The notes under the pieces: model-generated | Databases searched by the model: none | What the model saw: the letters and a program-made list of their open reading frames with translations, nothing else | Told to the model about the DNA's origin: nothing | Assembly: GCF_029626105.1 (NCBI RefSeq) | Contig: NZ_JARUBH010000009.1 | Span: forward strand, 5,890,001-5,954,000 | Reading direction: 5' to 3' | From: Solwaraspora sp. WMMD792 | GTDB lineage: Bacteria; Actinomycetota; Actinomycetes; Mycobacteriales; Micromonosporaceae | DNA length: 64,000 nt | Shown: positions 1-18,402 of the stretch, piece after piece | Layout: every line of letters starts with the position of its first letter | How positions within the stretch are numbered: position 1 is the stretch's first letter | Made by a program: the position numbers and the translations under genes

Positions 1-342
1 ACCCGGGAGCCGCACGACGCCATCAAACGGCGCTGCTTCTACCACTGGATCGACCATCCCGGTCCCGAGCTGGAGGCTCGTATCCTCCACCGGCACGTAG
101 CAGGACTCGCGCCGGACCTGGCCATCGCCATCACCGAGATCATGGCCCAGCTCCGTCGGCTGGACCTGGCCAAGCAGCCCAGCCTGGCCGAGACGATCGA
201 CTACGCGCGGGCGATACACCGGCTCGGCGCCGCCACGCCGGACGACCCGGCAGCGGACGCGGCGATCTGCACCCTGGTCAAGCACCACGACGACGAAGCG
301 CAGGTACGTCGGGTGCTGGCACGTCGACGGCACGACCGATGA
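1..342 (+). CDS. MoxR-type AAA+ ATPase, C-terminal part (5' truncated by window edge)
   Basis: The frame is open from base 1 and stops at 340-342. Only the last 113 codons are present, so the Walker motifs lie outside the window. The residue string REPHDAIKRRCFYHWIDHP near the start matches the conserved 'lid' segment of MoxR ATPases that work with VWA proteins, followed by a helical C-terminus. MoxR proteins are hexameric ATPases that remodel or activate partner complexes. The VWA gene starts inside its stop codon (ATGA overlap at 339-342), so the two are translationally coupled and probably act together. Assignment as MoxR family is fairly firm; its client is inferred from the neighbours. 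Confidence 0.82.
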   Translation, partial: TREPHDAIKRRCFYHWIDHPGPELEARILHRHVAGLAPDLAIAITEIMAQLRRLDLAKQPSLAETIDYARAIHRLGAATPDDPAADAAICTLVKHHDDEAQVRRVLARRRHDR

Positions 343-1454
343 CGGGCGACCCGCTGTCCCTCCTGGTCCGGTTCGCCGAGGCGCTGCGAACCGCCGGGTT
401 GGCCGTCAGCGTCGACCGGGTCGTCGCCGCCGCCGAGGCGCTGGGGCACTGGGGGGTCGCCGCCGACGCGCAACCGTACTGGCCGCTGCGGGTGGCTTTG
501 TGCCGCGACCGGACCGACGTACCCGTCTTCGACATCGTGTACCGCGATTGGTTCGGCACCCCGCCGGACGGCGTCGGTCACACTCGACCGGCGCTGGTCC
601 CAGCCCAGTCCCGCCGCACCGACAACCAGCCGCCTGCCAGCGAACCGGCACCGCAGAGGGCCGACGTACCGTCGCCGCGTGCCGCTGGCGGCGGGGCCGG
701 CAACACCAGCCGGCTGGCCAGCCGTGACTTCGACGACCTGACCGAGGATGAGCTGCGGGAGATGGCGACCTGGGTCGACCTGCTGCGGCCGATGCCCACC
801 CGACGCACGATGCACCGCCGCTCGACCCGGACCGGCCCGATCGATCCGGCCCGGACGATGCGGCTCATGCTGCGCACCGGCGGCGAGTTGGTACGGCTAC
901 GCCACCGCCGCCCGGCGGTACGCACCCGCCGACTGCTCCTGCTCGTCGACGTCAGCGCGTCGATGAGTCCGTACAGTGACATGCTGCTGCGGTTCGCGGC
1001 CGCCGCGCTGGCCGCGAATCCGCGTACCACCGAGGTCTTCGCTGTCGGCACCGACCACACCCGTCTCACCCGGTCGATGCGCGGGCTCCGCCCCCGGGAC
1101 GCGTTGCCCGCCGCCGGACGGGTGCAAACCGGCTGGTCCGGCGGCACGACGCTCGGCGACGCGCTGAACGGTTTCCTGCGACGCTGGGGTGGCACCGACG
1201 TCGTCCGCTCGGCGATCGTGGTCTTCGGCTCGGACGGGCTCGAACACGCGGAGATGGCACCGCTGATCCGGCAGGTCCAGCGGCTCGCAGCCCTCGCCAA
1301 GGTGCTGATCTGGGCCAGTCCCGACTGCCACACCGACGGCGAGCTTTCGCGGGACCACCGCATCGCCCAGGCGCAGCAGTCGGCCACCCGGGTGGTGGGT
1401 TGCCACGACTACCTGGCGCTGCGGAACCTGGCGAAGGTCGTGGCCAATGCGTGA
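339..1454 (+). CDS. VWA domain protein (CoxE-like) of a MoxR/VWA/CHAT operon
   Basis: A 371-aa protein. The N-terminal third contains WPLRVALCRDRTD and DIVYRDWF, typical of CoxE-like VWA proteins. A basic linker follows, then a C-terminal von Willebrand A domain starting with LLLLVDVSASMS. DVSAS at residues 204-208 is an intact MIDAS metal-binding motif, and VFGSDGLEH is probably a later metal loop. VWA proteins of this type dock on MoxR ATPases and pass their action to a third component. The start overlaps the upstream MoxR stop by 4 nt and the stop overlaps the CHAT gene by 8 nt, so the three form one coupled operon. No signal peptide or membrane segment is seen, so it should be cytoplasmic. 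Confidence 0.87.
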   Translation: MTGDPLSLLVRFAEALRTAGLAVSVDRVVAAAEALGHWGVAADAQPYWPLRVALCRDRTDVPVFDIVYRDWFGTPPDGVGHTRPALVPAQSRRTDNQPPASEPAPQRADVPSPRAAGGGAGNTSRLASRDFDDLTEDELREMATWVDLLRPMPTRRTMHRRSTRTGPIDPARTMRLMLRTGGELVRLRHRRPAVRTRRLLLLVDVSASMSPYSDMLLRFAAAALAANPRTTEVFAVGTDHTRLTRSMRGLRPRDALPAAGRVQTGWSGGTTLGDALNGFLRRWGGTDVVRSAIVVFGSDGLEHAEMAPLIRQVQRLAALAKVLIWASPDCHTDGELSRDHRIAQAQQSATRVVGCHDYLALRNLAKVVANA

Positions 1455-3810
1455 CCTCGAAGGACACGACGTCGCGGTGCGGCGAATCATGCGACGCGAC
1501 GACCTGCTGACCCTCGCCGCCGCCGCCGACACGGCCGTGGGAATCGTCCGGATGCGCGAGGCGGAGGCGCTGACCGGGGTCGACGGCAGCACCCTGTTCG
1601 ACCTCGCGCTGAGCAGGCACATCAAGTTGGCGACCGGGGACGCCGGCTGGGCGGAGCGGGCACAGGCCTGGGATCACGCCGCAGTTCTCGTCCGGTACTG
1701 CGAGCTGGCCGGCACCGCGCTGAACAGCCCGTACAGCGCGGTCGGCATGCACGCCCGGTCGCTGCGCCTGCTCAAGGAGAACCAGACCCGGCCCGGTCTG
1801 CGCCCGCTCGACCGGGACCTGACCCTGGGCGCCTTCAACCGCTACCACGCCGCCCGCGACCTGCGACTGGGCGGCCACACCCAGGCGGCCCGCGACCTGG
1901 CCCGCCGGTCACCACAGGACCTGTACGGCACCGGGGCCGAGCCACACATCGCGCACTACCAGTTCGAGGTCGGCGCGACCCACATCGAGCAGGGCGATCC
2001 CCGGCCGTTCCTGCGCCAATTGAGAGAGCTGCGCCCGTACTGGGCAGGTGACCGGGCCAAGGCGTTCTCCACCCACCACCGGTTCGAGTTCATCGAGGCG
2101 TTGGTCTCCTGGCACGCCGATCCCGGCAGCGACCGGGCCGGTGAGTGCTTCGCCGCCGCCATCGACCTGGTCGACACCGGCCGGGACGCCGCAGACGTCA
2201 GCAGCCACGACGGGGTGGACCATCAGGGCGTACGCGAACTGTCGCTGCTGCTCGCCGCCGCCGAGCACCTCGTCCGCACCGGCGGCGACCTCGACCGGGC
2301 AGTGGACCTGGGGTTGCGGGCGCTGGCCGTGGCCGAGCGGGTCCGGGCGCGCTGGCGGGTCATCGCCCGATCCCGGGCGCCGCTGGCCGAGGCGTTCCAC
2401 CGGGTCTACGCCGACGTCTGTCTGCTGGCCCACCGGATAGGCACCGATCGGGCCGCCGGGCTCGGGCTCCGGGCGGCGCTGTCCGCGAAGTCGACCGGTT
2501 TCGCCGCGCGGGTCCGCGACGGGCTGACCTTCGACGACAATCCGCTGATCAAAAACCTGCTGACCCAGATCCTCGATGTCGAAAACCCCAGCCCCGGTGT
2601 CATGACCAGCACGGCGTACCGCCGCCAGACGCAGCTGGACGCGCTGCGTAAGGACCTGGAGGACGCCGTCTCGCCGATGCTCGCCGACACCGTGTTCCCG
2701 CCGCCCACCGACCTGGACGAAGTCGTCCGCGAGATCGGGCCGCGGTACGCCCTCGACTATGTCGAGCTGACCGACAATCTGGCGGTCCCGGCGTTCTTCC
2801 GCACGCTCATCGAGCCGGGTGGCCGGATGACTTTCGACCGGTTCGATCCGGGCGACGATTTTCGGGTCCTGTTCGAGCACGCCCGGGTCGGCCAGCTGAC
2901 CGGCGGCCGGGACGTCGTCGACCCGCCGGTGGCGGGTCTGCGCGACGACGGTCTGCTCGACTTCCGGGCACTGGCCGGCAAGGTCCTGCCGCCACGGTTG
3001 ACCGAGGAGATCCTGCCCGGCTGCACCGTCGACGCGCCCGCCCAGCTGCTGATCTCGGCGCACTCGTGGCTGAGCCTCGTCCCGTGGGCCGCTCTGTGGA
3101 CCGGCCCCGGTACCCGGCTGGTCGAGCGCGCCGTCATCTCGCAGAGCCCGGTGCTCACCTGCCTGTCCGGTAAACTGCCACCGCCGGTCTCGGGTGCCGC
3201 ACTGGTCCGCCTGGTCGGCTCCGACGAGCCGGTGGAGATCGACGGACAGCGCCTTTCCGACCTCGACATCGCACAGGAGCGGGCCGCGTGGGGTCTGCTG
3301 CCCCCGGACACTGTCGGCGTCGCGCTCAGCAGCTGCGATCTGGGCGACGACGGCGTCCCGGCCCCGTACGGCGGCCGGTTCGCGGACGCGTTGCGACGGC
3401 GCGGCCGCTGGCAGTTCCTGCACATCGCCGCGCACGGCGGCGGCCAGGGCTTCGGCCAGTATCTGGCCCTGCCCGGCGAGCGGCTGTCGGCGGCCCGGGC
3501 TCTCGGGCTGCGCTGGCCGGAGTCGGTCCTGATGGCGTCGTGCCACGTCGGACTGGTCCGCAACGATCAACGCGCCGAGCCGCTGAGCCTGGTGATGGCG
3601 CTGCTGACCGGGGGTGCCCGGTGCGTGGTGGCCGGGATCGACAGCGTCGACGACGCCGGCACCGGCCGGATCGCCGCCGCGATGGTGCGCGCCGCTCGGT
3701 CCCCCGAACCGGTCTCCATCGACGTCGCGCTGCGCGACGCCCAGCTGGCCGAGATCCGGGCGGGCACCCCGGAGTCCGGCTGGGCGCTGCTCAGCGCGTA
3801 CGTGCGATGA
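1447..3810 (+). CDS. CHAT-domain (caspase-like) protease with helical repeat N-terminus
   Basis: A 787-aa protein. Residues 1 to about 400 are alpha-helical with TPR-like character; the C-terminal third is a CHAT domain (separase/caspase-fold peptidase). The predicted catalytic dyad is intact: His663 in HIAAHGGG and Cys699 in MASCHVG. The preceding LLISAHSWLSLVPWAAL is the usual CHAT substrate-pocket strand. CHAT proteases are effectors of several conflict and regulated-death systems. As third gene of a MoxR/VWA operon this protein fits the slot of a vWA-MoxR-associated effector, which is inference from context. It ends 7 bp from the convergent minus-strand operon. No membrane segments are seen. 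Confidence 0.85.
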   Translation: MRDLEGHDVAVRRIMRRDDLLTLAAAADTAVGIVRMREAEALTGVDGSTLFDLALSRHIKLATGDAGWAERAQAWDHAAVLVRYCELAGTALNSPYSAVGMHARSLRLLKENQTRPGLRPLDRDLTLGAFNRYHAARDLRLGGHTQAARDLARRSPQDLYGTGAEPHIAHYQFEVGATHIEQGDPRPFLRQLRELRPYWAGDRAKAFSTHHRFEFIEALVSWHADPGSDRAGECFAAAIDLVDTGRDAADVSSHDGVDHQGVRELSLLLAAAEHLVRTGGDLDRAVDLGLRALAVAERVRARWRVIARSRAPLAEAFHRVYADVCLLAHRIGTDRAAGLGLRAALSAKSTGFAARVRDGLTFDDNPLIKNLLTQILDVENPSPGVMTSTAYRRQTQLDALRKDLEDAVSPMLADTVFPPPTDLDEVVREIGPRYALDYVELTDNLAVPAFFRTLIEPGGRMTFDRFDPGDDFRVLFEHARVGQLTGGRDVVDPPVAGLRDDGLLDFRALAGKVLPPRLTEEILPGCTVDAPAQLLISAHSWLSLVPWAALWTGPGTRLVERAVISQSPVLTCLSGKLPPPVSGAALVRLVGSDEPVEIDGQRLSDLDIAQERAAWGLLPPDTVGVALSSCDLGDDGVPAPYGGRFADALRRRGRWQFLHIAAHGGGQGFGQYLALPGERLSAARALGLRWPESVLMASCHVGLVRNDQRAEPLSLVMALLTGGARCVVAGIDSVDDAGTGRIAAAMVRAARSPEPVSIDVALRDAQLAEIRAGTPESGWALLSAYVR

Positions 3811-3817
3811 ACGTTTC

Positions 3818-5215
3818 TCAGCTGTCCTCGTCGTCCGCCAGCCGTCGGGCCTGCTCCAGCGCCCAGCGCACCCGGTCGAGGCGACCCGGCTCCTTGGCGT
3901 GCTGATCCAGCGAGAACCACCGGATCCGCCAGGTCTGATAGCCCTGGTCGGCCGGCCCCAGTCCCCGACACCGGATCAACGACCAGATGAACATCGGCAT
4001 GGTCGCCGCGCCGAGCGCCCGTTCGCGACCGGACCCGCTCGGGCCACCGAGCCAGCTGGACATGGCCTCCACGGCTGCGTCGTCGAGCGGGTTGAGTGCG
4101 AGACAGGCCGGGCCGTCGGTCCGCCGTGACGGAAGGTCAAACCCGGGTTTGAGCAGCGCCAGGTTGAGTCGGACGTGCACCAGCTGCCGCTGGAAGCCTT
4201 CGTCCATCTTCGATTCACCCGGCACGTCCTTCTCGATGGCCGCGTACGCCCGGGTGAACCGGTCCAGCAGGTCCTTCTCCCACAGCTCCCAGGAGTCGAA
4301 CTCCGGTGGCGGGCGCAGGCCGCAGCGCTGCATCGCCGGCCGGATCGCCAGCAGCAGCGACGCCGCCCGGGCCGTCATGATCCCCGGATTCTGCAATGCG
4401 GTCTGCCGGGTGAGCCGGTGCTCGTCGACCTGGTCGGCGAAGCCGAACTCGGCTTCGATCTGGTAGGCCGTGTCGATCGCCCGCTCCCCGACGGCGACGC
4501 CGTCGGTCAGCTCGCGGAACATTCGCTGAATCCACCGCCGCTCCTCGGCGGGTGACCGGTCCGGCCGCGCCGGCTCCTCGGCGGGTGACCGGCCCGACGC
4601 CGCCGGCTCGTCGGACGGATCCGACCAGCGGGCGATCACCCGCTCGGCGGTACGGCAGGCCGTGCCGGTCTCGGCGAGCGCCAGCTGGAGAAACACCTCG
4701 TCCAACTGGAGCCGTAACGGTCGGGTGTCCTCGCCGGCGCCGAGACTGTCTCGGAACTCGACGTACTTCTTCTGGGCCTCGGCGTGCAACGTCCAGGCCG
4801 CGTCGTAGCCGCGCTCCGTGTCCCGCTTGGACTCGGCCAGGGCGAGGGCGCGCAGCGCGCCGAGAGCCCGTGGGGCGAACTCCGGCCACGGGAGTCCACG
4901 GGCACCGTCCGTGATCCGTCGGACCAGGGCGAACTCCGCCTCGCTCCGTTGTCGGACATCCGGCGCGGTGACGTCGCTGTCGAACGATGCCTCGATCCGC
5001 TGGACGCAGTCCCAACTCGTCTCGTAGATCAGCCAGCCCATCAGCGGGAGCCGCTCGGCCAGCTCGGCGGGCGGCAGCTGGGTCGCCCGGGCGGCCAGGA
5101 TGTCGCGGTACGCCTGGACGTCCGCCTCGATCCGGTCGACCAGCTCGCTGTCGGTGCGGCACTCCTTGGCTCGCAGCGCGGTGCACAGGTCGCGCAGCTC
5201 CTGCGGGGTCATCAT
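3818..5215 (-). CDS. Uncharacterised protein, paralogue of the product of 7149-8501, downstream of a caspase gene
   Basis: A 465-aa protein, mostly alpha-helical, with no signal peptide or membrane span. It shares long blocks with the 450-aa product of 7149-8501: QLPPAEL...GWLIYETS near residue 50, LPWPEFAPRALGA, LQLALAETGTACRTAE, and a C-terminal MPxFIxS...YQxWRxxW block. I chose ATG 5215 because GGAGGAG lies 8 nt upstream and it overlaps the caspase stop (ATGA); ATG 5212 is also possible. I do not recognise the family securely. It recalls the caspase/TPR-associated ('CATRA') partners described for conflict systems, but that needs a profile search. It has a low-complexity insert with tandem RSPAEE copies near residues 240-260. 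Confidence 0.72.
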   Translation of the reverse strand: MMTPQELRDLCTALRAKECRTDSELVDRIEADVQAYRDILAARATQLPPAELAERLPLMGWLIYETSWDCVQRIEASFDSDVTAPDVRQRSEAEFALVRRITDGARGLPWPEFAPRALGALRALALAESKRDTERGYDAAWTLHAEAQKKYVEFRDSLGAGEDTRPLRLQLDEVFLQLALAETGTACRTAERVIARWSDPSDEPAASGRSPAEEPARPDRSPAEERRWIQRMFRELTDGVAVGERAIDTAYQIEAEFGFADQVDEHRLTRQTALQNPGIMTARAASLLLAIRPAMQRCGLRPPPEFDSWELWEKDLLDRFTRAYAAIEKDVPGESKMDEGFQRQLVHVRLNLALLKPGFDLPSRRTDGPACLALNPLDDAAVEAMSSWLGGPSGSGRERALGAATMPMFIWSLIRCRGLGPADQGYQTWRIRWFSLDQHAKEPGRLDRVRWALEQARRLADDEDS

Positions 5216-7152
5216 CGTGGGCGCTCCTCCACACTCGGTGTCATCTCGAAGTCGATGCCGTGGATCTCGTACCGCACCCCGTCCGGCCAATTCGGATCGA
5301 TCTCGCGGGAGCCGCCGGTGGCGATCTGGTCGATCAGGTCCCGCAGCCGGGAACCGCCAACGGGTGCGCGGTGATCACGGTCGGGCGGGCGGGGACCGCG
5401 ATCGGGTTCCCGGGTCTGGACGATCTCGGGCTGCTCCAGCGCGGCGAGGCTCTGCGGCGCGGAGCTGAGCACCACCAGGATCGTGTCGGTCCGGGCATGC
5501 GCCGGGTCAAGTCCGGTCGGCCAGGCCAGCCCTACCCCGGTCAGCTCCCGCCGAACGTCGTCGCGGCCGTACGTGTAGCCGGATCGTGGCGGTAGCAGAC
5601 GGCCACTCGGGGTGCCCCGCATCAGCAGCGAGACCCGGCCGGACAGCCCGATGTCCAGCATCGACACGTACACCGGCAGGTCACCCCGGTTGTGGACGGT
5701 CACGTAGATCCGGCTGGCCGGGGTCAGCGGACGACCGGCGGGCGGCGGCGGGTGCTCGGCACCGTCCACGACCAGGCCCCAGTCCACCGTGACATCGGTG
5801 CCCAGCGGGTAGGACGGGTCACCGATCAGTCGCCGCAGCTGGGTCGCCTGGGCGTGGATCAGCACCGCGCGGGCGAGGTCGGCGTACCCCCGGGCGTCAT
5901 CCGGGTACGGCGGATGCAGCGGCCCGATCCGGTCACGGAGCACCACCCCGCCGGAGTCGTCGAACCGGATCTCGGCCGTCCACTCGGCGCCGCGCCGGGC
6001 CGGGCGGGCCAGCACCGTCGACTCCAGCGCCGCCAGCACCTGCCCGCCGCGCGGGTCGCCGGTCGGCACCCGCACCGTGATCTGCGGCGCGGTCACCCTG
6101 GTGCGTACCGCCCGCGCCCCCGCCGGCACCGCCGACCAGTCGGCGGCGAAGCTCACCGTGCCCGCGACCGACGTCTGCGCCACGTGGTCGATCGTCAGAT
6201 CGCCGACCCGGTGCGCCCGGTCGTCGGCTGCCCGACCTGGCGGCATGATCATGAACTCGTCGCCGTGCTGGACCCGCAGCAGGGCGGCGGCGTCCAGCCG
6301 GACCCGGCCGGGCACGTCCAGCGGCGTCACCGGCAGGGAATTCAGCAGGTCCGCGCGCTCGGTGCTGAACAGCAACCGGTCGGCCGGACCCTCCGCCTCG
6401 GGACGCTGCTCGAACATCAGCCCGGTCACCCGGTAGCGGACCTGGTCGAGCAGCCCGGACCAGGTCACCGGTGCGTCGCCGGCCTCGGCGAGGGCCCGGC
6501 ACAGCTGCGTGGTGAGGATGCCACGCCAGAGCCCGTCGTCGCCCGGACGTTCGAACGCACGCTGACCGGGTGCGCAGGCCACGATGCGGACCGCGTGCGG
6601 GTTGCTCTCGATGGGCAGCAGGTCGGTACGCAGCTGGATCCGGTCGAGGTGGGCGCGGACCCAGGCGTACGGTGCCGGTCCGCGCAGCGCCCGCAGCCGC
6701 AGGTTCACGTCGCGGGACATCAGCCCGGAGTGGCAGCAGTCGAGGATCACCGTGACGTTGCGGGTCACCGCGACCAGCTGGGACTGCAGGACGGACAACT
6801 CTGCGGCGGTTACGCCCCGGAAGTCGTCGGCGGTCGACTGGTCGTAGTCGGTCGGCACGATGTACTGCAGATCGGCCGGCCACGGCGGCCCGGTCTGTGG
6901 TGGCCCGGTCCGCGGAGGCTCGGTCGAGCCTCCGTGGCCGGAGTAGTAGACGACGACCGCGTCGCCCGGCCCGGCGTCGGCGATGATCCCTTCGTACGCG
7001 GCGATGATCCCGGCCCGCGTCGCCGCTGCCGGTGGGCACTCACGCACGTCGAACCCGCGTGCCCGCAGAGCCTGCGTCATCGCCGCGAGATCGTGCCGCA
7101 CACCGCGCAGGCCGCCATGGTCGGAGCCGATCAGCAGGGCAAGCCGGCTCAC
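5212..7152 (-). CDS. Caspase-family (C14) peptidase with C-terminal beta-rich region
   Basis: A 646-aa protein. Residues 1 to about 250 form a caspase/metacaspase p20-p10-like domain: ALLIGSDHGGL strand, catalytic His73 in YYSGHGG, and catalytic Cys140 in ILDCCHSG. From about 260 the protein is beta-rich and then has a DUF4384-like part (VHNRGDLPVYVSMLDIG). The GTG start at 7152 overlaps the stop of the upstream paralogue gene by 4 nt (GTGA), and the downstream paralogue starts inside this stop, so three proteins come from one transcript. Bacterial caspases of this kind are proteolytic effectors or activators in conflict systems. The target here is unknown. Confidence 0.86.
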   Translation of the reverse strand: MSRLALLIGSDHGGLRGVRHDLAAMTQALRARGFDVRECPPAAATRAGIIAAYEGIIADAGPGDAVVVYYSGHGGSTEPPRTGPPQTGPPWPADLQYIVPTDYDQSTADDFRGVTAAELSVLQSQLVAVTRNVTVILDCCHSGLMSRDVNLRLRALRGPAPYAWVRAHLDRIQLRTDLLPIESNPHAVRIVACAPGQRAFERPGDDGLWRGILTTQLCRALAEAGDAPVTWSGLLDQVRYRVTGLMFEQRPEAEGPADRLLFSTERADLLNSLPVTPLDVPGRVRLDAAALLRVQHGDEFMIMPPGRAADDRAHRVGDLTIDHVAQTSVAGTVSFAADWSAVPAGARAVRTRVTAPQITVRVPTGDPRGGQVLAALESTVLARPARRGAEWTAEIRFDDSGGVVLRDRIGPLHPPYPDDARGYADLARAVLIHAQATQLRRLIGDPSYPLGTDVTVDWGLVVDGAEHPPPPAGRPLTPASRIYVTVHNRGDLPVYVSMLDIGLSGRVSLLMRGTPSGRLLPPRSGYTYGRDDVRRELTGVGLAWPTGLDPAHARTDTILVVLSSAPQSLAALEQPEIVQTREPDRGPRPPDRDHRAPVGGSRLRDLIDQIATGGSREIDPNWPDGVRYEIHGIDFEMTPSVEERPR

Positions 7153-8501
7153 CAGATCCCGCCGTCCGGATCCCGGTCCAGCAGCGCTTCGATGCCGGTC
7201 CAGCGGTCCGGGCCGTACCGGTCGAGCGCGGTCCATTCCCGCCGCCACTGTTGATAGTTGGCGGTCGCACCGGCGTCGTCCCGGCACGCCTCGACCGAGC
7301 GGATGAAATGAGGCATCGACGCGGAGCCGACGACGCTCGCGTCACCGCGTACCCTGCCGTCGCCGCCGGCCGGTTCCGCCAGCCAGCGCGACATGGCCCG
7401 GGCGGCCTCGTCGTCGAGCCGGTGCAGCGTCAGCGTGTCATCCACGACCAGCGGCTCCTCGAGCGTCTCCGAAGCGGTCAACAGCGCCAAGTGCAGGCAG
7501 AACTGCACGATCGTGCGGGCGTGGTCGTCGAGCAGCGGGGCGAGGGTGCCGTCGGCCTGCATGGCCGGGCGGACCAGGTACGCCAGTGTCTCGTGGAACC
7601 GCTGGCGTACCGAGGACATGAAGTCCGGCCAGGTGTCGTAGCCCCGCGGACGCATGCCGAGACGCTGCATCGCCGGACAGAGCGAGTACATCAGCAGCAA
7701 CGCCCGGCACGTCATGATCGCCGGGTTGCGGAACCCGGTGCGCAGAATGAGCCGGTCCTCGGTGATCGTCTCCACGAAGCCGTACTCCTGGTAGATCCGG
7801 TCGGCGATGTCCAACGCCCGCCTCCCGACCTCGGCACCGTCGGAGAGCTGCCGGAACATCCGGGGCACCCAGCGGTCGGCCTCCCGCCGCTCGGTCGCCA
7901 CGTCCGCGCCGCCCCAGTTCTCGAGCCAACGGCCGATCGTCTGTTCAGCGGTGCGGCAGGCGGTGCCGGTCTCGGCGAGAGCCAGTTGCAGCAGGACTTC
8001 GTCGAGGTCGAGGACCAGGCGCGCATCCGCCGGGTCGGCGCCGAGACTGTCCCGGTACGACTGATGCTTTGTCCGTACTTCCTCGTGCAGCAGCCACGCG
8101 CCGTCATAGTCGTTCCACTTCGACCTGACCAGCGCCAGGGCCCGGATGGCGCCCAGGGCACGGGGGGCGAACTCCGGCCACGGCAGCGATCTGGCGGCGG
8201 TAGCGAGCCGGATGATCAGCGCCGCGTCAGCCTCAGCCGCCCGCCGCGCCTGCTCCGACAGCCCATCGATCTCGGCTGGAACGTTCCACAGCAGCATCAG
8301 CGACGTCTCGTAGATCAACCAGCCGGTCAGCCGCAGACCGGTCCTCAGCTCCGCCGGCGGCAACTGGGTGGGCGCGACGCGCAGGCGGTCGCGGTACGCC
8401 GCCACGTCATGCTCGATCCGAGCGACCAACGCCTCGTCGACGGGGATCCTCTTCCGACGGACGTCGGAGCAGAGTTCACGGAGAACATCGATCTCGGTCA
8501 T
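7149..8501 (-). CDS. Uncharacterised protein, first gene of the caspase operon
   Basis: A 450-aa helical protein with ATG at 8501 and a GGGAGGT ribosome site 9 nt upstream. It is a paralogue of the 465-aa product of 3818-5215. Shared motifs include QLPPAELRTGLRLTGWLIYETS, LPWPEFAPRALGA, LDEVLLQLALAETGTACRTAE and YQQWRREW. The N-terminal segment VLRELCSDVRRK...ALVARIEHDVAAYR has heptad-like spacing. No catalytic motif is seen. Position first in the operon and duplication around the caspase suggest that the two paralogues form a heteromeric adaptor or inhibitor for it; this is inference. It could equally be an independent sensor subunit. Confidence 0.75.
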   Translation of the reverse strand: MTEIDVLRELCSDVRRKRIPVDEALVARIEHDVAAYRDRLRVAPTQLPPAELRTGLRLTGWLIYETSLMLLWNVPAEIDGLSEQARRAAEADAALIIRLATAARSLPWPEFAPRALGAIRALALVRSKWNDYDGAWLLHEEVRTKHQSYRDSLGADPADARLVLDLDEVLLQLALAETGTACRTAEQTIGRWLENWGGADVATERREADRWVPRMFRQLSDGAEVGRRALDIADRIYQEYGFVETITEDRLILRTGFRNPAIMTCRALLLMYSLCPAMQRLGMRPRGYDTWPDFMSSVRQRFHETLAYLVRPAMQADGTLAPLLDDHARTIVQFCLHLALLTASETLEEPLVVDDTLTLHRLDDEAARAMSRWLAEPAGGDGRVRGDASVVGSASMPHFIRSVEACRDDAGATANYQQWRREWTALDRYGPDRWTGIEALLDRDPDGGIW

Positions 8502-8700: not shown

Positions 8701-9690
8701 ATGTCCGGCTTCGCACCCGTCCCACTTCCCGCCTGCGAGCCAAACTTCCAGCCGGATGCGGTCGCCGCCGAGATCGAGACCTGGGTGTCCGCTGAGCCGA
8801 TACGGGCACTCGTCGACAGGTTCGGCGGCACCCTGCCGGCCACCGCCGTCGGCCCGCTGCTGACCTGGTTGGACGGCTTCTCCGGTGAGCACTGGGACTT
8901 TCGGAAGAAGGCCGCCGGGGTGGAACGCGACCAGGTCAGACCCCCCCACTTCGATCGGGCGACCGCCCAGTTGGTGACCGACGCGGCAACTGCCCTCCAA
9001 CTGGTCGAGCCGCGGCTGCCGGCCCACCGGGAGTACGACCATCTGCTCGTCCTCGGCGGCCTGGGCCGGGCCTGCCTGCAGCGCACCGAATACGCCGCGC
9101 GGCTGATCGATCAGGGTGCGGTCAGCGTTGCCGAACTGGCCGCGCTGGGCAGTTTCCGGCCGCTGACCACGGCGGAACGGGAACTGCCCGGACTCGCGGA
9201 CAGCGGGTACGAGGTAGACGCGATGGACGCCGGGGTGCGGGCCGCGTTCCGCCTCGACGGACCCGGGCTGCGCGAATCGTCGGACGGCCCGGTCGACCAC
9301 AGCTCCTGGTCGGTGCGCACCTACCGGTCACCGGCCGGTACGGCAGTCCGGGTGCTCGCCGCACCGTCAAGTGAACCGGCCACCCGCCGGGCCAACACCC
9401 CGGACACCTACGAGTTCTGGGCCCGGCGGGTCGACCTACGCGCCACCGACCGGATCTTGGTGGTCACCTCCCCGATCTACGTGCCGTTTCAACACGCCGA
9501 CGCCCTGCGCATGCTGGCGCTGCGGTACGGCTGCGGAATCGACACCATCGGCTTCGACCCTGGCGCGGTGAGCGTGCCGCTCGCGCCCGGCGCCACCAAC
9601 CCGGACCGCTACCTGCAGGAGATCCGCTCCGGGCTGCTGTCCATGATGCGGCTGTACCAGGCCGCCTCCGCGCCCGCAGCCGTACGATGA
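8701..9690 (+). CDS. Uncharacterised protein with DUF218/YdcF-like pattern (first of a paralogous pair)
   Basis: A 329-aa protein. ATG 8701 is preceded by GGAGG about 5 nt away, preferred over ATG 8683. After a helical N-terminus (about 100 residues) come YDHLLVLGGLGRACLQR, then SVAELAALGSFRPL, and late in the protein RILVVTSPIYVPFQHADALRML. This order (VLGG...R, then VVTSxxxxPxQ) recalls the DUF218/YdcF fold, which acts in envelope metabolism in other bacteria. The similarity is pattern-level only. It overlaps the next gene by 4 nt, and that gene is a paralogue. No signal peptide. The function is unknown to me. Confidence 0.7.
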   Translation: MSGFAPVPLPACEPNFQPDAVAAEIETWVSAEPIRALVDRFGGTLPATAVGPLLTWLDGFSGEHWDFRKKAAGVERDQVRPPHFDRATAQLVTDAATALQLVEPRLPAHREYDHLLVLGGLGRACLQRTEYAARLIDQGAVSVAELAALGSFRPLTTAERELPGLADSGYEVDAMDAGVRAAFRLDGPGLRESSDGPVDHSSWSVRTYRSPAGTAVRVLAAPSSEPATRRANTPDTYEFWARRVDLRATDRILVVTSPIYVPFQHADALRMLALRYGCGIDTIGFDPGAVSVPLAPGATNPDRYLQEIRSGLLSMMRLYQAASAPAAVR

Positions 9691-10628
9691 CCAGCGACTT
9701 CGCCCGCGCGCCTCTGCCGTCGTGCCGGTCGGGCGGCGACCGGGCCAGTGTGGCCGAGGGAATCGCCGGGTGGCTGGGCTCGGCCGCGATGACCGCACTG
9801 CTGGCCGCGTTCGGATTCCGGCTGCCGGCTGCCGCCCCGCTCGGCGACCGGCTCGCCGACGCCGCGCGTTTCTCCAGCCGATGGGACTACCGCAAGGGGA
9901 AGGAACGGCACCAGGCGGTCGGCGAGAAATTCGAGCCGGAACTCGACGCGCTGATCAGGCGGACCACCGCCGCCCTCGGCCTGGCCGACTGCGCGACGCC
10001 TGCGGAGCGACGGTACGACCACGTCCTCGTCCTCGGCGGCGGAGTCCGTACCATGCTGGCCCGGGCCCACCTGGCCGCGACGACGGTCCTGCGGGATGGA
10101 ATCGGAGTGTCGGCCGTGGCCGGGCTGGGCAGCACCCGGCCGCTCGTGGGTCAGGCCGAGACAACCCGCGAGCTGGGGCTGCGGCCGTGTCCCACCGAAG
10201 GCGACGCGGTGGCGGAATCGCTACGCCTCGAGTTCGGTCTCGGTGAACCAACCAGTTGCCGGGACGGCGACGGCTGGTGGGTACGGGAGCACGTCGACGT
10301 TCGGCCTCCGGTGTCGGTACTCGCCGCGCCGTCGACCCGGCCGGGGATGCGCGCCAACACGGCCGACACGTTCGTCGGGTGGGCCGAACTCCTGCCCGGA
10401 GCCGCCCGCGACGCCCGGCTGCTGCTGGTCACGACCGACATGTTCGTGCCTTTCCAGCACTGTGACGCGGTACGGGTGCTCGGCCTCGGCTACGGCGCCA
10501 CGATCGAGACGATCGGGTTCGCGACCGCGACCAGCCGGTGGGTGCAGCCCGCCGACACGTTCGAGGTGCTGCAGGAGGTCCGCTCGGCGATCCGCTCCAT
10601 GCAACTGCTCTACGCCGCCGTGGACTGA
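9687..10628 (+). CDS. Uncharacterised protein with DUF218/YdcF-like pattern (second of a paralogous pair)
   Basis: A 313-aa paralogue of the preceding product: YDHVLVLGGGVRTMLAR, GLGSTRPL, RLLLVTTDMFVPFQHCDAVRVLGLGYGATIETIGF and a C-terminal EVRSAIRSMQLLY helix all match it position for position. The ATG overlaps the upstream stop (ATGA), so the pair is probably co-translated and may form a heterodimer. Its 3' end overlaps the 3' end of the convergent MurD-like gene by 19 nt (10610-10628). With the ligase and serine hydrolase next to it, a role in cell-wall or nucleotide-sugar chemistry is possible but unproven. Confidence 0.7.
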   Translation: MTSDFARAPLPSCRSGGDRASVAEGIAGWLGSAAMTALLAAFGFRLPAAAPLGDRLADAARFSSRWDYRKGKERHQAVGEKFEPELDALIRRTTAALGLADCATPAERRYDHVLVLGGGVRTMLARAHLAATTVLRDGIGVSAVAGLGSTRPLVGQAETTRELGLRPCPTEGDAVAESLRLEFGLGEPTSCRDGDGWWVREHVDVRPPVSVLAAPSTRPGMRANTADTFVGWAELLPGAARDARLLLVTTDMFVPFQHCDAVRVLGLGYGATIETIGFATATSRWVQPADTFEVLQEVRSAIRSMQLLYAAVD

Positions 10629-11983
10629 ATCGCCTCGCGGAACACCCGCGACTTGTGTTCCCAGTTGTCGTACCGTCCGTAGCTGGGTGCTGCGGGGGAC
10701 AGCAGCACCACGCCGCCCGCCGGGGTGACCTCGCGGCTCAACCGCACGGCGTGCACCAGATCGCCGGTGGACAATGTGGTGATGCCCGGCAGGTCGCGCA
10801 GCAGGTCGAGGATCACGTCACCGTTGTCCGGCAGGCCGATCAGCGTCGCCGTGATCTTGCGCTGCTCCAGGTAGTCCCGCAGCGGGGTGTAGTCCACCGC
10901 CCGGTCCAGACTTCCGCCGACGATCACGGTCAGCGGGCGGTCCGCGTATGCCTCGATCGCGTACATCGCCGACTGCGGAATGGTCGACAGTGAGTCGTCC
11001 ACAAAAGTAAGCCCGGACGGGTCAGGCAGTTCGGTCATCCGGTACGTCAGCGGCGCGTACTCCCCGACGGCGCGGGCCAGGTCGTCGCGGTGGGTCAGGC
11101 AGTCGACGCCTTCCCCCTGCACCGCGGCCAGCGCCACGCAGAGGTTGCCCTCGTTGTGCCGCCCGACCGGCGCGAACAGGTCGCGTGGGAACAGCGGCTC
11201 GCCGGCCAGGAAAACCCAGCGCCGGCCGTCGGGATGCTCGGTCACATGGAACGAGTCCGGCCGGTTTCCAGCGACCAGCGGCAGCTGGAGACCGGCACCC
11301 AGCTGGTGCAGCTCGGCGGCCAGCCGCTCGTCCTGGCCGTTGTAGACGACCACCTCGGCGCCGTGCATCGCCACGTTGAGCTTGTCGCGGTAGTAGCCAC
11401 TCTCACTGCCCGACCAGTCGAGATGCTCCTGGAACAGCGAAGTCAACGCGACCACCCGGGGCGAGTCCTCGAGGTCGGCACACTGGTAGACGCTCAGTTC
11501 CAGCACGTACCGCTCCGACTCGGGCAGGGCGAGCGCCGCCACTCCGATGTTTCCGCCGAGGGTGGCCTGCCGACCGACCGCCGCCAACATCTGGTGGATC
11601 AGCGTCGTCGTCGTGCTCTTGCCCTTGCTACCGGTGACCCCGACGGTACGCGTGGCGTGGTCGGCCATCCACAGAGCGGTACCGCCGGTCACCACCCCGC
11701 CCCGGGCACGGTGCTCCACGATCCAGGGATGCGTCTGGCCGATGATCGGCGACCGGACGATCACGTCGATCGAGCGGAGCTGGTCGTGGGCCGCCTCGCC
11801 CTCGTACAGCGGCGCGATCTCGGCGAGTCGGCCGTCCCAACCGGTGGCGAGGAAGGTCGTCCGGTCCTGGACCGCGATCATCCGCGCGGGACCGTACGGG
11901 GCGATGGCCTCGGCGGCGGCGATCGCCTCCCGGCCAGTACCCCAGACGGCGACCTGCCGACCTGTCAAGTCCTCCAGATGCAC
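10610..11983 (-). CDS. murD2: MurD-like UDP-N-acetylmuramoyl-L-alanine--glutamate ligase
   Basis: A 457-aa Mur ligase. GTG 11983 is preceded by GAGGAG. The N-terminal Rossmann segment reads VAVWGTGREAIAAAEAI. The ATP-binding P-loop is VTGSKGKSTTT. The central domain has GGNIGVAAL and ELSVYQCADL, and the C-terminal domain has FVDDSLSTIPQSAM and the MurD-like LSPAAPSYGRYDNWEHKS. MurD adds glutamate to UDP-MurNAc-L-Ala in the cytoplasm. Main-pathway MurD usually sits in the dcw cluster, so a copy beside unknown genes looks like the alternative MurD2, which uses L-glutamate in bacteria that also carry an epimerase (MurL). No MurL is recognisable here, so MurD2 versus an ordinary duplicate stays open. 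Confidence 0.78.
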   Translation of the reverse strand: MHLEDLTGRQVAVWGTGREAIAAAEAIAPYGPARMIAVQDRTTFLATGWDGRLAEIAPLYEGEAAHDQLRSIDVIVRSPIIGQTHPWIVEHRARGGVVTGGTALWMADHATRTVGVTGSKGKSTTTTLIHQMLAAVGRQATLGGNIGVAALALPESERYVLELSVYQCADLEDSPRVVALTSLFQEHLDWSGSESGYYRDKLNVAMHGAEVVVYNGQDERLAAELHQLGAGLQLPLVAGNRPDSFHVTEHPDGRRWVFLAGEPLFPRDLFAPVGRHNEGNLCVALAAVQGEGVDCLTHRDDLARAVGEYAPLTYRMTELPDPSGLTFVDDSLSTIPQSAMYAIEAYADRPLTVIVGGSLDRAVDYTPLRDYLEQRKITATLIGLPDNGDVILDLLRDLPGITTLSTGDLVHAVRLSREVTPAGGVVLLSPAAPSYGRYDNWEHKSRVFREAIQSTAA

Positions 11984-12088: not shown

Positions 12089-13108
12089 GTGACGTCCCTC
12101 GCGGAGCAGGTAACCGCGCTGGCGCGGGCGGCTCCGATGCCCGCCGTCGCGGTGTGCGTCTTCGACCGGCAGGGCGTACTGGCCCGAGCGGTGCACGGCG
12201 TCGCCGACTTGTCGGTCGGCCGGCCGGCGACTGCCGACGAGTGGTGGGACCTGGCGAGCCTCACCAAGACGCTGGTCACGCTGCCTGAAGTTCTCAGTCT
12301 GGTGGCCGACGGTCGGTTGGCACTGGAACAGCCGCTCGCCGAATGCTGGCACCGGGCGGTCGGCCGACCGGTCGGCAGGGCCACCGTCGCTGACCTGCTC
12401 AGTCACCGGTCCGGACTACCCGCCACCGTTCCCTTCTTCCGGACCCTCACCGGGCGCGCGGCGGTCGTGGACGCGGCGCTACGCACCGAGCTGGCGGACC
12501 AGCCGAGGGTGGTCTACAGCGACCTGGGCTTTCTACTGCTCGGTGCGATGGTCGAGGATCTCGCTGACGAATCGCTGACTGTGCTTGCCCGACGCCGGAC
12601 CGGGCTGCACATGGGGCGGGCCCCCGGCCGCGCCGCCGCCACCGAACACTGCCCGTGGCGTCGGCGACTCATCGTCGGAGAGGTCCACGACGAGAACGCT
12701 TGGACGATGGGCGGTGTCGCCGGGCACGCCGGCGCGTTCGGCACGCTGCAGCTGGTCAGTTCGGCGGCGCGGAGCTGGCTGGCCGAGCAGGCCGTAAGCC
12801 CGGACCTGCATGCGGCGGCCCGGTCGTGCTGGGCTACCGGCCACGACACCGAGCGGTTCGGCTTGGGCTGGTGGCTCACTCCGACCAGAGGCCTGGGCGG
12901 GCCGGTCGCCGGACCGGACGGCTACGGCTGCTCTGGTTTCGTCGGCAACCGGGTGTGGCTCGAGCCCAGCCGTGGCTATGGCGTGGTCATCTTGAGTAAC
13001 CGTGTCCATCCACGGCGCGACGTTCGTGCCCCATTCGCCGCCTGGTGCGATCGCCTGCTTGCAATGCTGGCGACCGAGGTGTGGAGCCAAGGGGACTCGA
13101 ACCCCTAA
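12089..13108 (+). CDS. Serine hydrolase, beta-lactamase/DD-peptidase (class C) family
   Basis: A 339-aa protein with GTG start. The catalytic SxxK motif is SLTK (DLASLTKTLV, about residue 55) and the second motif is YSD (VVYSDLGFLLLG). A later HAGAFGT/SGFVG segment fits the third strand region. No signal peptide is obvious, so it is probably an intracellular esterase or peptidase of the beta-lactamase superfamily rather than an exported PBP. The final residues (EVWSQGDSNP) are encoded by the attL core of the adjacent integrated element, so the gene ends inside the 3' end of the original tRNA gene. It is divergent from the MurD-like gene with a 105-bp gap. Confidence 0.8.
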   Translation: MTSLAEQVTALARAAPMPAVAVCVFDRQGVLARAVHGVADLSVGRPATADEWWDLASLTKTLVTLPEVLSLVADGRLALEQPLAECWHRAVGRPVGRATVADLLSHRSGLPATVPFFRTLTGRAAVVDAALRTELADQPRVVYSDLGFLLLGAMVEDLADESLTVLARRRTGLHMGRAPGRAAATEHCPWRRRLIVGEVHDENAWTMGGVAGHAGAFGTLQLVSSAARSWLAEQAVSPDLHAAARSCWATGHDTERFGLGWWLTPTRGLGGPVAGPDGYGCSGFVGNRVWLEPSRGYGVVILSNRVHPRRDVRAPFAAWCDRLLAMLATEVWSQGDSNP

Positions 13109-13111
13109 CCC
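13081..13111. repeat. attL of the AICE (31-bp direct repeat)
   Basis: These 31 bases are identical to 26982-27012, the 3' part (T-arm and acceptor stem) of tRNA-Ala on the minus strand. Identity stops on both sides, marking the left end of the integrated element. Only the tRNA 3' part is present here; the intact gene lies at the integrase end. Confidence 0.93.
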
Positions 13112-13328
13112 GCGTCCGGGCCTTGGATCGGGTCGAACCGGACACGTCGGCTCGCTGGCCTGCGGCGGGTTCCTCGACGTCTCTCGGCCTCTCGCAGCTG
13201 CTTCGGTTCTCGTTTGTACTGGCGTTGTCGTAGTTGATCTTTGTAGGTCGGCTTGCCGCTGTTTGGCTGGCCCCGGCAGCGATGACGTGATCCCGACTCG
13301 GTGAGTTCGGTGATTGTGCTTGTCGTCG
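13112..13328. other. Left-end non-coding stretch of the AICE
   Basis: About 217 bp between attL and the NB-ARC gene. No convincing gene is seen. It must hold the cargo gene promoter and probably integrase arm sites, but I see no clear consensus or repeat. Confidence 0.45.
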
Positions 13329-15986
13329 ATGATGGTGCGCGTGGCTCGGGTGTTTCCTCGTCGGTGGCGGCGGCGGACGGTTGTGTTTGCGGTCTTCGCT
13401 GTCGTCTGTGGCCTGGTGGCCCTGTTCGCCTGGTGGAATCCGTGGGGGTGGGGGCTGCCTCGGTTCGGTTGGGCGGGTACGGAACAGGCTGGCTGGATCG
13501 CGGGGATTATCGGCAGCGTGGCGGCTTTGGCGGCACTCGTCGACGGGTTCATGGCTCGGCGCGTCAAGCGTGGTCCGTCGTCGGTGCCGAAGGGTGCGGT
13601 GGTGCGTGTCGGGCGGGTCCCGGAGCGGGCGGCGTGGTTTCAGGGTCGGCCTGCGGGCGCGGAGCTGTCGCGGGCGGCCAGGGCGGGCCGGACGGCGGTG
13701 TTGACGCAGGTGTTGTCGGGGATGGGTGGGGTGGGCAAGACCCAGTTGGCGGCGGAGTTCGCGCGCCGGTTGGAGCGGGGTCGTGAGGTGGATGTGCTGG
13801 TGTGGGTGACGGCGTCGAGTCGTGACGCGATCGTCGCCCGTTACGCCGACGCTGCCCGCTCGGTGGGTGCCGCTGTGGCGGGAGACGGGGACGATGAGGC
13901 TGCGGCCAGCCGGTTCGTGTCGTGGTTGGAGCGCACGTCGAAGCGGTGGCTGGTCGTGTTGGACAACCTCGATAGCCCTGGTGACGCTGCGGACTGGTGG
14001 CCGCCGAACAGTCGCAATGGTCGGACGGTGGTGACGACCCGTCGCCGTGATCCGGTGCTGCACACGGACGGCCGTTTCCTGGTCGACGTCGATGTGTTCA
14101 GCCCGGATAACGCTGTCGATTATCTTGACGGTGCGATCGGTGCCAGTGGTGACCAGGATGACGATCTGGCTGCGTTGGCCGCTGATCTGGGGTGTCTGCC
14201 GTTGGCGTTGGCGCAGGCGGCCGCGTTCATCCGGGACCGGGGTATCGATCCTGCCGGTTATCGGGCCCGGCTGGCTGACCGGCGGAAGAGGTTGATTGAG
14301 CTTGTCCCGCCGGATGACGCTCTCCCAGATGGGCACCGGGCGACGGTCGCGGTCACGTGGTCGCTGTCGATCGACGTGGCGGACAGCCATCCGCCAGCCG
14401 GTCTGGCTCGGCATGTCTTGAACCTCGCCGCTGTGCTGGATCCGAACGGCATCCCCGAGGCCGTGTTCACCGCCGATGCTGCCGTGGCGCACCTCGCGGA
14501 CCGCAGCGGGCGGCAGGTGACAGCTGACGACGTACGCGACGCGCTACGGAACCTGCACCGACTGAGCCTTGTCACCCACGACACGGCCACCGGCACGGTC
14601 CGCGTCCACGCCCTGGTGCAGCGGGTCACCCGCGACACCCTCGACCCGGTCCACCTCGCCGCTCTCGCCCGGGCCGCCGCTGACGCTCTACTGGCTGTCT
14701 GGCCCGAGATCGACCGGGACCACGACACCACGCAGACCTTGCGTTCCAATAGCACCGCCCTACGGACGGCCAGCGGTGATGCACTCCTGCAACCCGACGC
14801 TCATCCGCTGCTGTTTCACAGCCCCCGCAGCCTCGGGAACACCGGACAAGTCGCGGCTGCCGCTACCGCGTTCGAGGAGTTGCTCGCCGACTCTGTGCGG
14901 GTGCTGGGGCCGGATCACCCCGACACCCTGACCACCCGCAGCAACGTCGCTTCCTGGCGGGGTCGAGCGGGTGACGCCGTCGGCGCGGCCGCCGCGTTCG
15001 AGGGGTCGCTCGCCGACACTGTGCGGGTGCTGGGGCCGGATCACCCCGACACCCTGACCACCCGCAACAACCTCGCTTACTGGCGGGGTGAAGCGGGTGA
15101 CGTCGCCGGCGCGGCCGCCGCGTTCGAGGAGTTGCTCGCCGACCGGCTGCGGGTGCTGGGGCCGGATCACCCCGACACCCTGACCACCCGCAACAACCTC
15201 GCTTACTGGCGGGGTGAAGCGGGTGACGCCGTCGGCGCGGCCGCCGCGTTCGAGGAGTTGCTCGCCGACTCTGTGCGGGTGCTGGGGCCGGATCACCCCG
15301 ACACCCTGCGCGCCCGCAGCAACGTCGCTTCCTGGCGGGGTGAAGCGGGTGACGCCGTCGGCGCGGCCGCCGCGTTCGAGGAGTTGCTCGCCGACACTGT
15401 GCGGGTGCTGGGGCCGGATCACCCCGACACCCTGCGCGCCCGCAGCAACGTCGCTTACTGGCGGGGTGAAGCGGGTGACGCCGTCGGCGCGGCCGCCGCG
15501 TTCGAGAGGTTGCTCGCCGACCGGCTGCGGGTGCTGGGGCCGGATCACCCCGACACCCTGACCACCCGCAACAACGTCGCTTACTGGCGGGGTGAAGCGG
15601 GTGACGCCGTCGGCGCGGCCGCCGCGTCCGAGGAGTTGCTCGCCGACTCTGTGCGGGTGCTGGGGCCGGATCACCCCGACACCCTGACCACCCGCAGCAA
15701 CGTCGCTTCCTGGCGGGGTCGAGCGGGTGACGCCGTCGGCGCGGTCACTGCGTTCGAGGAGTTGCTCGCCGACACTGTGCGGGTGCTGGGGCCGGATCAC
15801 CCCGACACCCTGACCACCCGCAACAACCTCGCTTACTGGCGGGGTGAAGCGGGTGACGCCGTCGGCGCGGCCGCCGCGTTCGAGGAGTTGCTCGCCGACC
15901 GGCTGCGAGTGCTGGGGCCGGATCACCCCGACACCCTGACCACCCGCAACAACCTCGCCCACTGGCAACGACAGACCAGCACCTGA
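13329..15986 (+). CDS. NB-ARC/STAND ATPase with N-terminal membrane segments and near-identical TPR repeats
   Basis: An 885-aa protein from ATG 13329; TTG 13314 or ATG 13332 are alternatives and no strong ribosome site is present. Residues 10-75 hold two hydrophobic spans (around VVFAVFAVVCGLVALFAWW and WIAGIIGSVAALAAL). A signalling NTPase follows, with P-loop GMGGVGKTQ near residue 130, Walker B WLVVLDNL, and RxVVTTRRR as sensor. A winged-helix-like segment leads to a C-terminal TPR array of 42-residue units marked by VLGPDHPDTL, nine copies at exact 126-bp spacing. STAND proteins with TPRs are sensors that oligomerise on ligand binding. As AICE cargo a defence or exclusion role is plausible. 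No separate effector domain is seen; the membrane part may be the output. Confidence 0.85.
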   Translation: MMVRVARVFPRRWRRRTVVFAVFAVVCGLVALFAWWNPWGWGLPRFGWAGTEQAGWIAGIIGSVAALAALVDGFMARRVKRGPSSVPKGAVVRVGRVPERAAWFQGRPAGAELSRAARAGRTAVLTQVLSGMGGVGKTQLAAEFARRLERGREVDVLVWVTASSRDAIVARYADAARSVGAAVAGDGDDEAAASRFVSWLERTSKRWLVVLDNLDSPGDAADWWPPNSRNGRTVVTTRRRDPVLHTDGRFLVDVDVFSPDNAVDYLDGAIGASGDQDDDLAALAADLGCLPLALAQAAAFIRDRGIDPAGYRARLADRRKRLIELVPPDDALPDGHRATVAVTWSLSIDVADSHPPAGLARHVLNLAAVLDPNGIPEAVFTADAAVAHLADRSGRQVTADDVRDALRNLHRLSLVTHDTATGTVRVHALVQRVTRDTLDPVHLAALARAAADALLAVWPEIDRDHDTTQTLRSNSTALRTASGDALLQPDAHPLLFHSPRSLGNTGQVAAAATAFEELLADSVRVLGPDHPDTLTTRSNVASWRGRAGDAVGAAAAFEGSLADTVRVLGPDHPDTLTTRNNLAYWRGEAGDVAGAAAAFEELLADRLRVLGPDHPDTLTTRNNLAYWRGEAGDAVGAAAAFEELLADSVRVLGPDHPDTLRARSNVASWRGEAGDAVGAAAAFEELLADTVRVLGPDHPDTLRARSNVAYWRGEAGDAVGAAAAFERLLADRLRVLGPDHPDTLTTRNNVAYWRGEAGDAVGAAAASEELLADSVRVLGPDHPDTLTTRSNVASWRGRAGDAVGAVTAFEELLADTVRVLGPDHPDTLTTRNNLAYWRGEAGDAVGAAAAFEELLADRLRVLGPDHPDTLTTRNNLAHWQRQTST
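14845..15965 (+). repeat. In-frame tandem repeat, 126-bp period (TPR-coding)
   Basis: The sequence beginning gtgctggggccggatcaccc recurs at 14901, 15027, 15153, 15279, 15405, 15531, 15657, 15783 and 15909, exactly 126 bp apart. Units differ at a few codons only, e.g. TTR/RAR, NN/SN, L/V, DS/DT/DR. Such homogeneity at DNA level points to recent expansion or gene conversion, and the variable codons recur at the same positions in each unit. Confidence 0.95.
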
Positions 15987-16122
15987 TCTGCGCCTTGATG
16001 CCTTCCGGACAAGGGCAACCGTCTCTCGCCGAGGGCCGAGTAACACGGCGCGGCGGGCGGTTGCCCGGCAGTGACGGTGGTTTTCCGCCCCGGCCGCGTA
16101 GCGGTCCGGGGTGGCTTGCCGC

Positions 16123-16161
16123 CGGGCGGTGTTCCGCCCGCGCGCCGCGCTGGGCGCGGCG
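16123..16161. terminator. Two adjacent GC hairpins between convergent genes
   Basis: A 7-bp stem (16123-16129 with 16134-16140) is followed by an 8-bp stem (16143-16150 with 16154-16161) and then TCTTGATC. They sit in the 406-bp gap between the NB-ARC gene (rightward) and the GntR gene (leftward) and could end both transcripts. The rest of the gap (15987-16392) shows nothing recognisable. Confidence 0.5.
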
Positions 16162-16392
16162 TCTTGATCCAATACAGAACTATTCGGCAACGTGGGAAGC
16201 AGTGACTGCGGGCACCGGCTGCTGGTACGCCGACCCTGCACCAGCGGCAGAAGATCCAAGTTTCTGCCGATCTCCCGGGGTGCTGCGGAAGTAGGTCGGG
16301 ACCAAGCCGACCCGCACCGCAGCCGCGCCAGCGGCGAGGAGCGGAAGCGGCGCGGTAGTTGGGGTTGACCACGACTCGCGGCAACGGCGACG

Positions 16393-16899: not shown

Positions 16900-17217
16900 G
16901 TGCCGTCTGGCTGCTCATTTCTACGTCTGGACAACAGGTCCACTTGTAGGTACGTTTCTCTGTGTGTGGTCGGGTTAGCCGCTCGTGATCAAGGGGTTGG
17001 CTGCGTTCGGCGTCCCGGCCACACGCCTCGCGTACTGCCTGTCAGCGCCTCCTCTGTGTGGGGGTGCGGGTGGTGTGCGTCCTGGTCGGGGTGCGGCGTT
17101 ACCCGACTCCGCCCGCCGGGCGGTGCGCCGTATCTCGCGGTGGGGCCGGCGGCTCTGCGCGTTACCCCCGTTGCGTGCGGGGTCGCCGGTCTCCTGTCAG
17201 CGTGGGAGGTGCTGATC
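16900..17217. promoter_or_regulatory. Divergent regulatory gap between GntR gene and small AICE genes
   Basis: A 318-bp gap with no supported gene. Near the GntR start, ACCTGTCTGTTGT (around 16880) and ACAACAGGT (around 16931) form an imperfect inverted pair, a possible operator. GGGAGGT at 17204-17210 is the ribosome site of the gene at 17218. No clear -35/-10 pair is seen. Confidence 0.35.
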
Positions 17218-18295: not shown

Positions 18296-18363
18296 CCCAG
18301 CGGATCACGCGCCGGGTGGTGCGGGGCGGGGTGTGGGCGGACCGTCCGGGTGCGCCGAGCACC

Positions 18364-18383: not shown

Positions 18384-18402
18384 AGGGGGTAGCGTTGCCG
18401 GT

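Follow-up and report, generated by a model that had tools for sequence, protein, structure and literature searches.

A MoxR–VWA operon with a TPR-CHAT protease and its constant partner family P5: a candidate conflict system with exchangeable caspase or CATRA modules

MoxR–vWA ternary systems (VMAP, iSTAND, FtsH and beta-propeller types; iSTAND2, TERNS3) share a MoxR AAA+ ATPase, a vWA protein and a third component (PMC7159879, PMC8195603). CATRA systems join a CATRA protein with a TPR/caspase-type protease partner, and type III-E Craspase joins Cas7-11 (gRAMP) with the TPR-CHAT protease Csx29. In the caspase–nuclease systems named Canu, a caspase is reported to activate a partner nuclease in phage defence (PMC12799240). 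Here we analyse a 64,000-nucleotide stretch of Solwaraspora sp. WMMD792 (hereafter the window; its genome is G000), in which a MoxR–VWA–CHAT operon faces an operon encoding a caspase-like protease flanked by members of a ∼450-residue family, for which we use the working name P5. From the sequences we read the parts and their catalytic motifs, a constant pairing of CHAT with P5, the separate occurrence of caspase and CATRA proteins in 20 loci, a caspase–P5 fusion and a genomic island. Tentatively, and at somewhat less than even confidence, we read the locus as a MoxR–vWA-gated TPR-CHAT conflict system that may act through P5 and has an exchangeable caspase or CATRA output.

The plus-strand operon enters the window with the last 113 codons of the MoxR gene (1..342), whose start lies upstream and the rest of which was taken from the same assembly. 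MoxR matched Pfam AAA_5 (E 4.4e-15), with Walker A and B present. The next gene encodes a 371-residue VWA_CoxE-like protein (339..1454; Pfam VWA_CoxE, E 5.2e-36), and it is followed by that of the 787-residue TPR-CHAT protease (1447..3810; Pfam CHAT domain, E 1.3e-18). Consecutive genes overlap by 4 nucleotides (MoxR/VWA) and 8 nucleotides (VWA/CHAT). The minus-strand operon has the order P5-alpha (450 residues, 7149..8501), caspase-like protease (646 residues, 5212..7152; Pfam Peptidase_C14, E 4.1e-19; padloc caspase model, 48.1 bits) and P5-beta (465 residues, 3818..5215), so that paralogues lie on either side of the caspase. Both junctions overlap by 4 nucleotides, the starts of the caspase and P5-beta genes having been picked by coding score. 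The two operons converge with 7 bp between the stops of CHAT (3810) and P5-beta (3818), as the first-pass annotation had described. The dyads and the metal-ion-dependent adhesion site that it had called intact are likewise present: His663 and Cys699 of CHAT, invariant in all 20 aligned CHAT proteins, His73 and DCCH (Cys139/140) of the caspase, and DVSAS of the VWA protein. By the DxCH motif, we take the second cysteine of the caspase, Cys140, to be the catalytic residue. The ratio of nonsynonymous to synonymous substitution rates (dN/dS) of the six genes, compared with the close relative G003, is 0.18–0.51, which indicates that they are on average under purifying selection.

For comparison we assembled 20 CHAT–P5 loci and checked their gene content by tblastn; a gene counts as present or absent with respect to the 15.7 to 35 kb read on and around CHAT. 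Full-length CHAT was found in 17 of 354 genomes of the family (18 loci), and full-length P5 in the same 17. Two further loci are L109, in the Actinoplanes italicus genome G112, and one outside the family in G073. Left out of the counts were G094 (CHAT matched in part at 85 bits and P5 not at all), G115 and G337 (P5 fragments of about 44 bits) and L108, a locus without a CHAT gene. In the family searches only the two best CHAT and the four best P5 candidates of each genome were scored, so that some copies may have escaped; L109 itself came to light via P5.

P5 is present in all 20 CHAT loci and is encoded tail-to-tail with CHAT in 16 of them; for 13 of these 16 the stops of the convergent genes are −24 to +7 bp apart. 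MoxR and VWA together occur in 14 of the 20 (not in L038, L097, L103, L104, L107 and L109). The one full-length P5 met away from CHAT is part of a fusion with a caspase and belongs to a VMAP system. Judged by gene content, the constant partner of the CHAT operon is P5 and not the caspase. A tree of 25 P5 domains separates the 16 convergent copies (beta) from the nine others (alpha) with one change, a value as low as which was given by 0 of 500 shuffles (branch support 86/78); P5-alpha of L096 is absent from this tree. P5-alpha accompanies a caspase in the window, L037, L098, L099 and the fusion of L108, and a CATRA protein in L040, L094 and L095. Neither accompanies it in L038 and, by tblastn, in L096. 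Distance matrices of CHAT and P5-beta are correlated over 16 loci (r=0.96; 0 of 5000 permutations as high), which co-inheritance alone can explain.

The window's P5-alpha and P5-beta are 45% identical and both are unannotated: neither matched Pfam at E≤1, and the best Pfam match among 23 family members was at E 0.05. A PDB sequence search returned nothing for P5 at E≤1 and nothing for CHAT at E≤0.1. P5 is modelled as a TPR-like solenoid, and the best structural matches of the model include the peptide-binding solenoids LGN, Rap and NprR. These matches, together with the presence of two diverged clades, would suit P5 proteins that serve as sensors, binding an invader peptide or protein and passing it on to MoxR–vWA–CHAT, whose substrates would then be other host or phage proteins. 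We consider this rather unlikely, since a common helical-repeat fold reveals no function and the core motifs conserved in an alignment of 23 sequences suit a fixed partner at least equally. The CHAT model matches Craspase TPR-CHAT and separase across nearly its whole length, and we accordingly describe the protein as modelled to be a full-length Csx29/separase-type TPR-CHAT protease.

The caspase and the CATRA protein behave as alternatives in these loci. The CATRA protein is found in 10 of the 20 loci and a caspase in 5, never together, and the remaining 5 have neither. Domains CATRA-N and CATRA-C were found in the three members scanned, the other CATRA calls being made by similarity. Counted among the caspase loci are L099, whose caspase resembles that of the window (P0004) only distantly (30%), and L097, where two c0 genes (described below) stand between caspase and CHAT. 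All five caspase loci fall in one CHAT clade of seven rows (support 100/99) that lacks CATRA, the other two rows being without caspase. Since each state is confined to a small number of clades, few independent events underlie the exclusivity of the two proteins. A fixed caspase–CHAT pair is ruled out, as only 5 of 20 CHAT loci have the caspase.

The first-pass annotation had treated the facing operons as a unit and suggested a protease relay or an effector with its own activator. As a standing pair the operons did not survive the neighbourhood survey: 15 of the 20 CHAT loci have P5 and no caspase, and among 81 relatives the caspase matched in 12 genomes, lying beside this CHAT in only two, G000 and G003. 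The association of the two proteases held up in part, through the single caspase-bearing CHAT clade and the operons of L041 and L045–L047 described below; the fixed partner is P5. In its direct form the relay would have MoxR–vWA-licensed CHAT cut and activate the facing caspase as executor, with P5 proteins as caspase scaffolds. The position of the caspase between alpha and beta in the window and in G003 would fit this, as would a caspase–P5 fusion, yet the many caspase-free CHAT–P5 loci and the loss of the catalytic histidine in that fusion make it unlikely. An opposite explanation, that two unrelated conflict systems merely lie side by side on one island and the caspase is a passenger, draws on the variable position of the caspase (flanked by alpha and beta, upstream of MoxR, on the far side of c0 or after alpha) and on the caspases not forming one clade in a poorly resolved tree. 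It appears improbable to us, given the overlapping alpha–caspase–beta genes in both G000 and G003, the fusion, and the confinement of the caspases to one CHAT clade.

The fusion is a 1593-residue protein of A. italicus (G112, contig C22, locus L108) that consists of a SAV_2336-type N-terminal region (425.6 bits, cut-off 200), a caspase-like region and a P5 domain. The caspase-like region has no Pfam caspase match; it aligns with other caspases by tblastn at 386 bits. The neighbouring genes encode a MoxR and a VMAP-C protein (130.3 bits), which indicates that the caspase–P5 unit occupies the effector position of VMAP ternary systems (PMC7159879). Its catalytic histidine is replaced (NGRGG), so a relay of active proteases is not general. 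This loss agrees with that paper's figure of about 70% inactive members among effector-position caspases.

A second type of caspase–CHAT operon was observed in L041 (5625–18133), where a LuxR-type AAA-TPR regulator, a caspase and two Pfam CHAT genes run in one direction. Members of the same two CHAT gene clusters lie near related caspases in L045, L046 and L047; no such CHAT genes were found within the stretches read of L042, L043, L044 and L048. Elsewhere, too, operons of related caspases include a LuxR-type AAA-TPR regulator. With L041 and L045–L047, caspase plus CHAT is a recurring pairing. This recurrence in gene neighbourhoods favours the two-protease idea in its general form, and it speaks for the direct relay as well.

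Some loci carry further genes beside these proteins. An LCAT-like alpha/beta-hydrolase gene (12863–14230) directly adjoins P5-beta in L100, a locus without caspase and CATRA, and is perhaps another output module. L097 encodes another TPR-CHAT (1000–5573), which matches Csx29 weakly (23.8 bits, cut-off 300), and two caspase-like genes, the second called by eye, stand beside the CHAT system in L099 (12476–16988).

The possibility that the plus-strand operon is a conserved housekeeping set, raised at the outset as one that would undo the conflict-system proposal, is ruled out by its patchiness. CHAT has the distribution in the family given above, and P5 was found in 1 of 394 genomes of a class-wide sample, the window's own. 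Among the 81 relatives, full-length CHAT occurs in five genomes and short CHAT-domain matches alone in five others; CHAT is absent from the five other genomes of the genus that were searched. The relatives include Dactylosporangium siamense, Actinoplanes italicus, Plantactinospora alkalitolerans and Micromonospora sp. HM5-17. A tblastn search of 72,556 plasmid records gave 0 matches to P5-alpha and CHAT, and one scan of viral contigs with P5, of which CHAT was not part, gave no relative.

The locus lies on a genomic island, and its flanks were compared in G002–G006. G004 matches the window up to position −662 and resumes about 70 bp later from 13080 onward, and thus lacks about 13.7 kb of the window's chromosome. 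On its right the island ends with 31 bp that repeat the 3′ end of tRNA-Ala (13081..13111); the intact tRNA-Ala is at 26982–27055, near gyrA. In G002 and G006 an intact tRNA-Ala is no more than about 105 bp away from the left flank, and G003 has one within 1 kb of the CHAT cluster on the cluster's right side. G005 deviates, its right flank being joined to sequence further left. Between the 31-bp copy and the intact tRNA-Ala, at 13081–27055, is a pSAM2-type integrative element with genes for RepSA (23715–25502), an FtsK-like protein (20859–22613) and an integrase (25686–26906). The island edge, the tRNA-Ala flanks in the relatives and the adjacent element together indicate that the CHAT cluster occupies an integration hotspot. 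For the cluster itself we identified no integrase. Also inside the integrative element is the gene of an 811-residue NB-ARC-TPR protein with strongly repeated TPR units (13551–15986), and a beta-lactamase family (serine hydrolase) gene stands at the right end of the island (12089–13108; Pfam 5.1e-39).

To the right of the P5-alpha gene, on the same island, are two copies of a protein of the family c0 on the plus strand (8701..9690 and 9687..10628), which with a MurD-like ligase (murD 241.9 bits, cut-off 211.95) fill 8701–11983. The c0 family is weakly DUF218-like, DUF218 being the only match (3 of 12 members, best E 0.072). The c0 genes occur in 14 and the MurD cluster in 10 of the 20 CHAT–P5 loci, and in the genus c0 and CHAT are in the same two of seven genomes; in other loci flanking genes recognized by eye are presumably MurB and MurL. 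A cell-envelope function shared with these neighbours, in place of conflict, would account for that co-occurrence. We regard it as very improbable, as 12 of 81 genomes have c0 and lack this CHAT, CHAT is patchy, and the partners of CHAT are conflict-system proteins. MoxR, VWA and CHAT/caspase are indeed parts of known conflict systems, as first proposed.

We return to the gated conflict system with an exchangeable output. In this reading the locus would be a mobile, intracellular conflict system, probably one directed against phages. The MoxR–vWA chaperone pair would stand in for the RNA-guided effector of Craspase, and would hold or license the TPR-CHAT protease. On a trigger, CHAT would act on P5-beta, its constant tail-to-tail partner, which would most likely be cut as a substrate, or otherwise be displaced as an inhibitor. 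The exchangeable module would then carry the output: caspase plus P5-alpha here, the CATRA protein in other loci. In this scheme we infer the gating of CHAT by MoxR–vWA, the cutting or displacement of P5, the role of the caspase as executor and a phage as trigger. By analogy with initiator–executioner caspase pathways, the whole might be a bacterial two-step proteolytic death circuit, in which an ATP-driven MoxR–vWA gate, separase-like TPR-CHAT and a dedicated pair of paralogous TPR-like adaptors would release the caspase, with CATRA in the same slot elsewhere; this extension is possible and we hold it to be doubtful. As P5 is named here as a constant, unannotated partner family, the substrate of a chaperone-gated CHAT protease becomes directly testable.

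The adjacent, overlapping MoxR and VWA genes are arranged as in the MoxR–vWA pair of VMAP-type ternary systems. The window differs from these in that its third component is a TPR-CHAT protease and that it has a separate obligate partner, P5. VMAP systems carry effector domains at the C-terminus of the vWA protein, whereas the window's VWA protein matches only VWA families. VMAP-C was not matched at E≤1 by any of the six proteins. Pfam gave no match at E≤1 to third components of the iSTAND, iSTAND2, TERNS3, FtsH and beta-propeller types among them, to the extent that it has models for these. The main text of PMC7159879 contains no word beginning with CHAT. A literature search found no description of a MoxR–vWA system with CHAT as third component; the original CATRA paper, which it did not cover, may describe part of this. 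PMC10907252 describes a retroelement target that bears CHAT and is near such systems. MoxR scored below the curated cut-offs of NCBIfam MadB (227.8 bits, cut-off 475) and MadC was also below (43.1 bits, cut-off 600); a literature search on NCBIfam's MadB/MadC found nothing. In a PHROGs search MoxR alone had matches.

Canu shares with the window a caspase encoded with partner genes as output module (PMC12799240); the partners here are P5 proteins, and no nuclease family was matched by the six proteins (Pfam). The caspase also scored below the cut-off for the EACC1–caspase system (38.9 bits, NCBIfam cut-off 140), and its neighbours are P5 proteins without Pfam match, no EACC1 model having been searched by name.

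Craspase shares the TPR-CHAT protease with its His/Cys dyad, the window's operon having MoxR–VWA in place of the Cas effector. The window's CHAT did not match NCBIfam Csx29, and none of the operon genes matches a Cas effector family in Pfam or NCBIfam, no dedicated search for Cas7-11/gRAMP or Csx30/Csx31 having been made. With regard to CATRA systems, the window has the caspase–P5 module where half of the CHAT–P5 loci have a CATRA protein: CATRA-N gave 0 matches in its genome, and CATRA 0 by tblastn in 35 kb around the locus. The protease partner of CATRA systems has its counterparts here in TPR-CHAT and the caspase. From gene neighbourhoods we infer that CHAT is that partner; CHAT-like genes lie near two of the four stand-alone CATRA loci read.

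The locus has parts in common with VMAP, CATRA and Craspase systems, and lacks a defining feature of VMAP and one of CATRA. It brings together MoxR–vWA ternary systems, CATRA systems and TPR-CHAT proteases of the Craspase type, three subjects that have been described separately. That caspase and CATRA alternate within a single type of locus, and that a caspase–P5 fusion stands in a VMAP setting, suggests that protease outputs are swapped between conflict systems.
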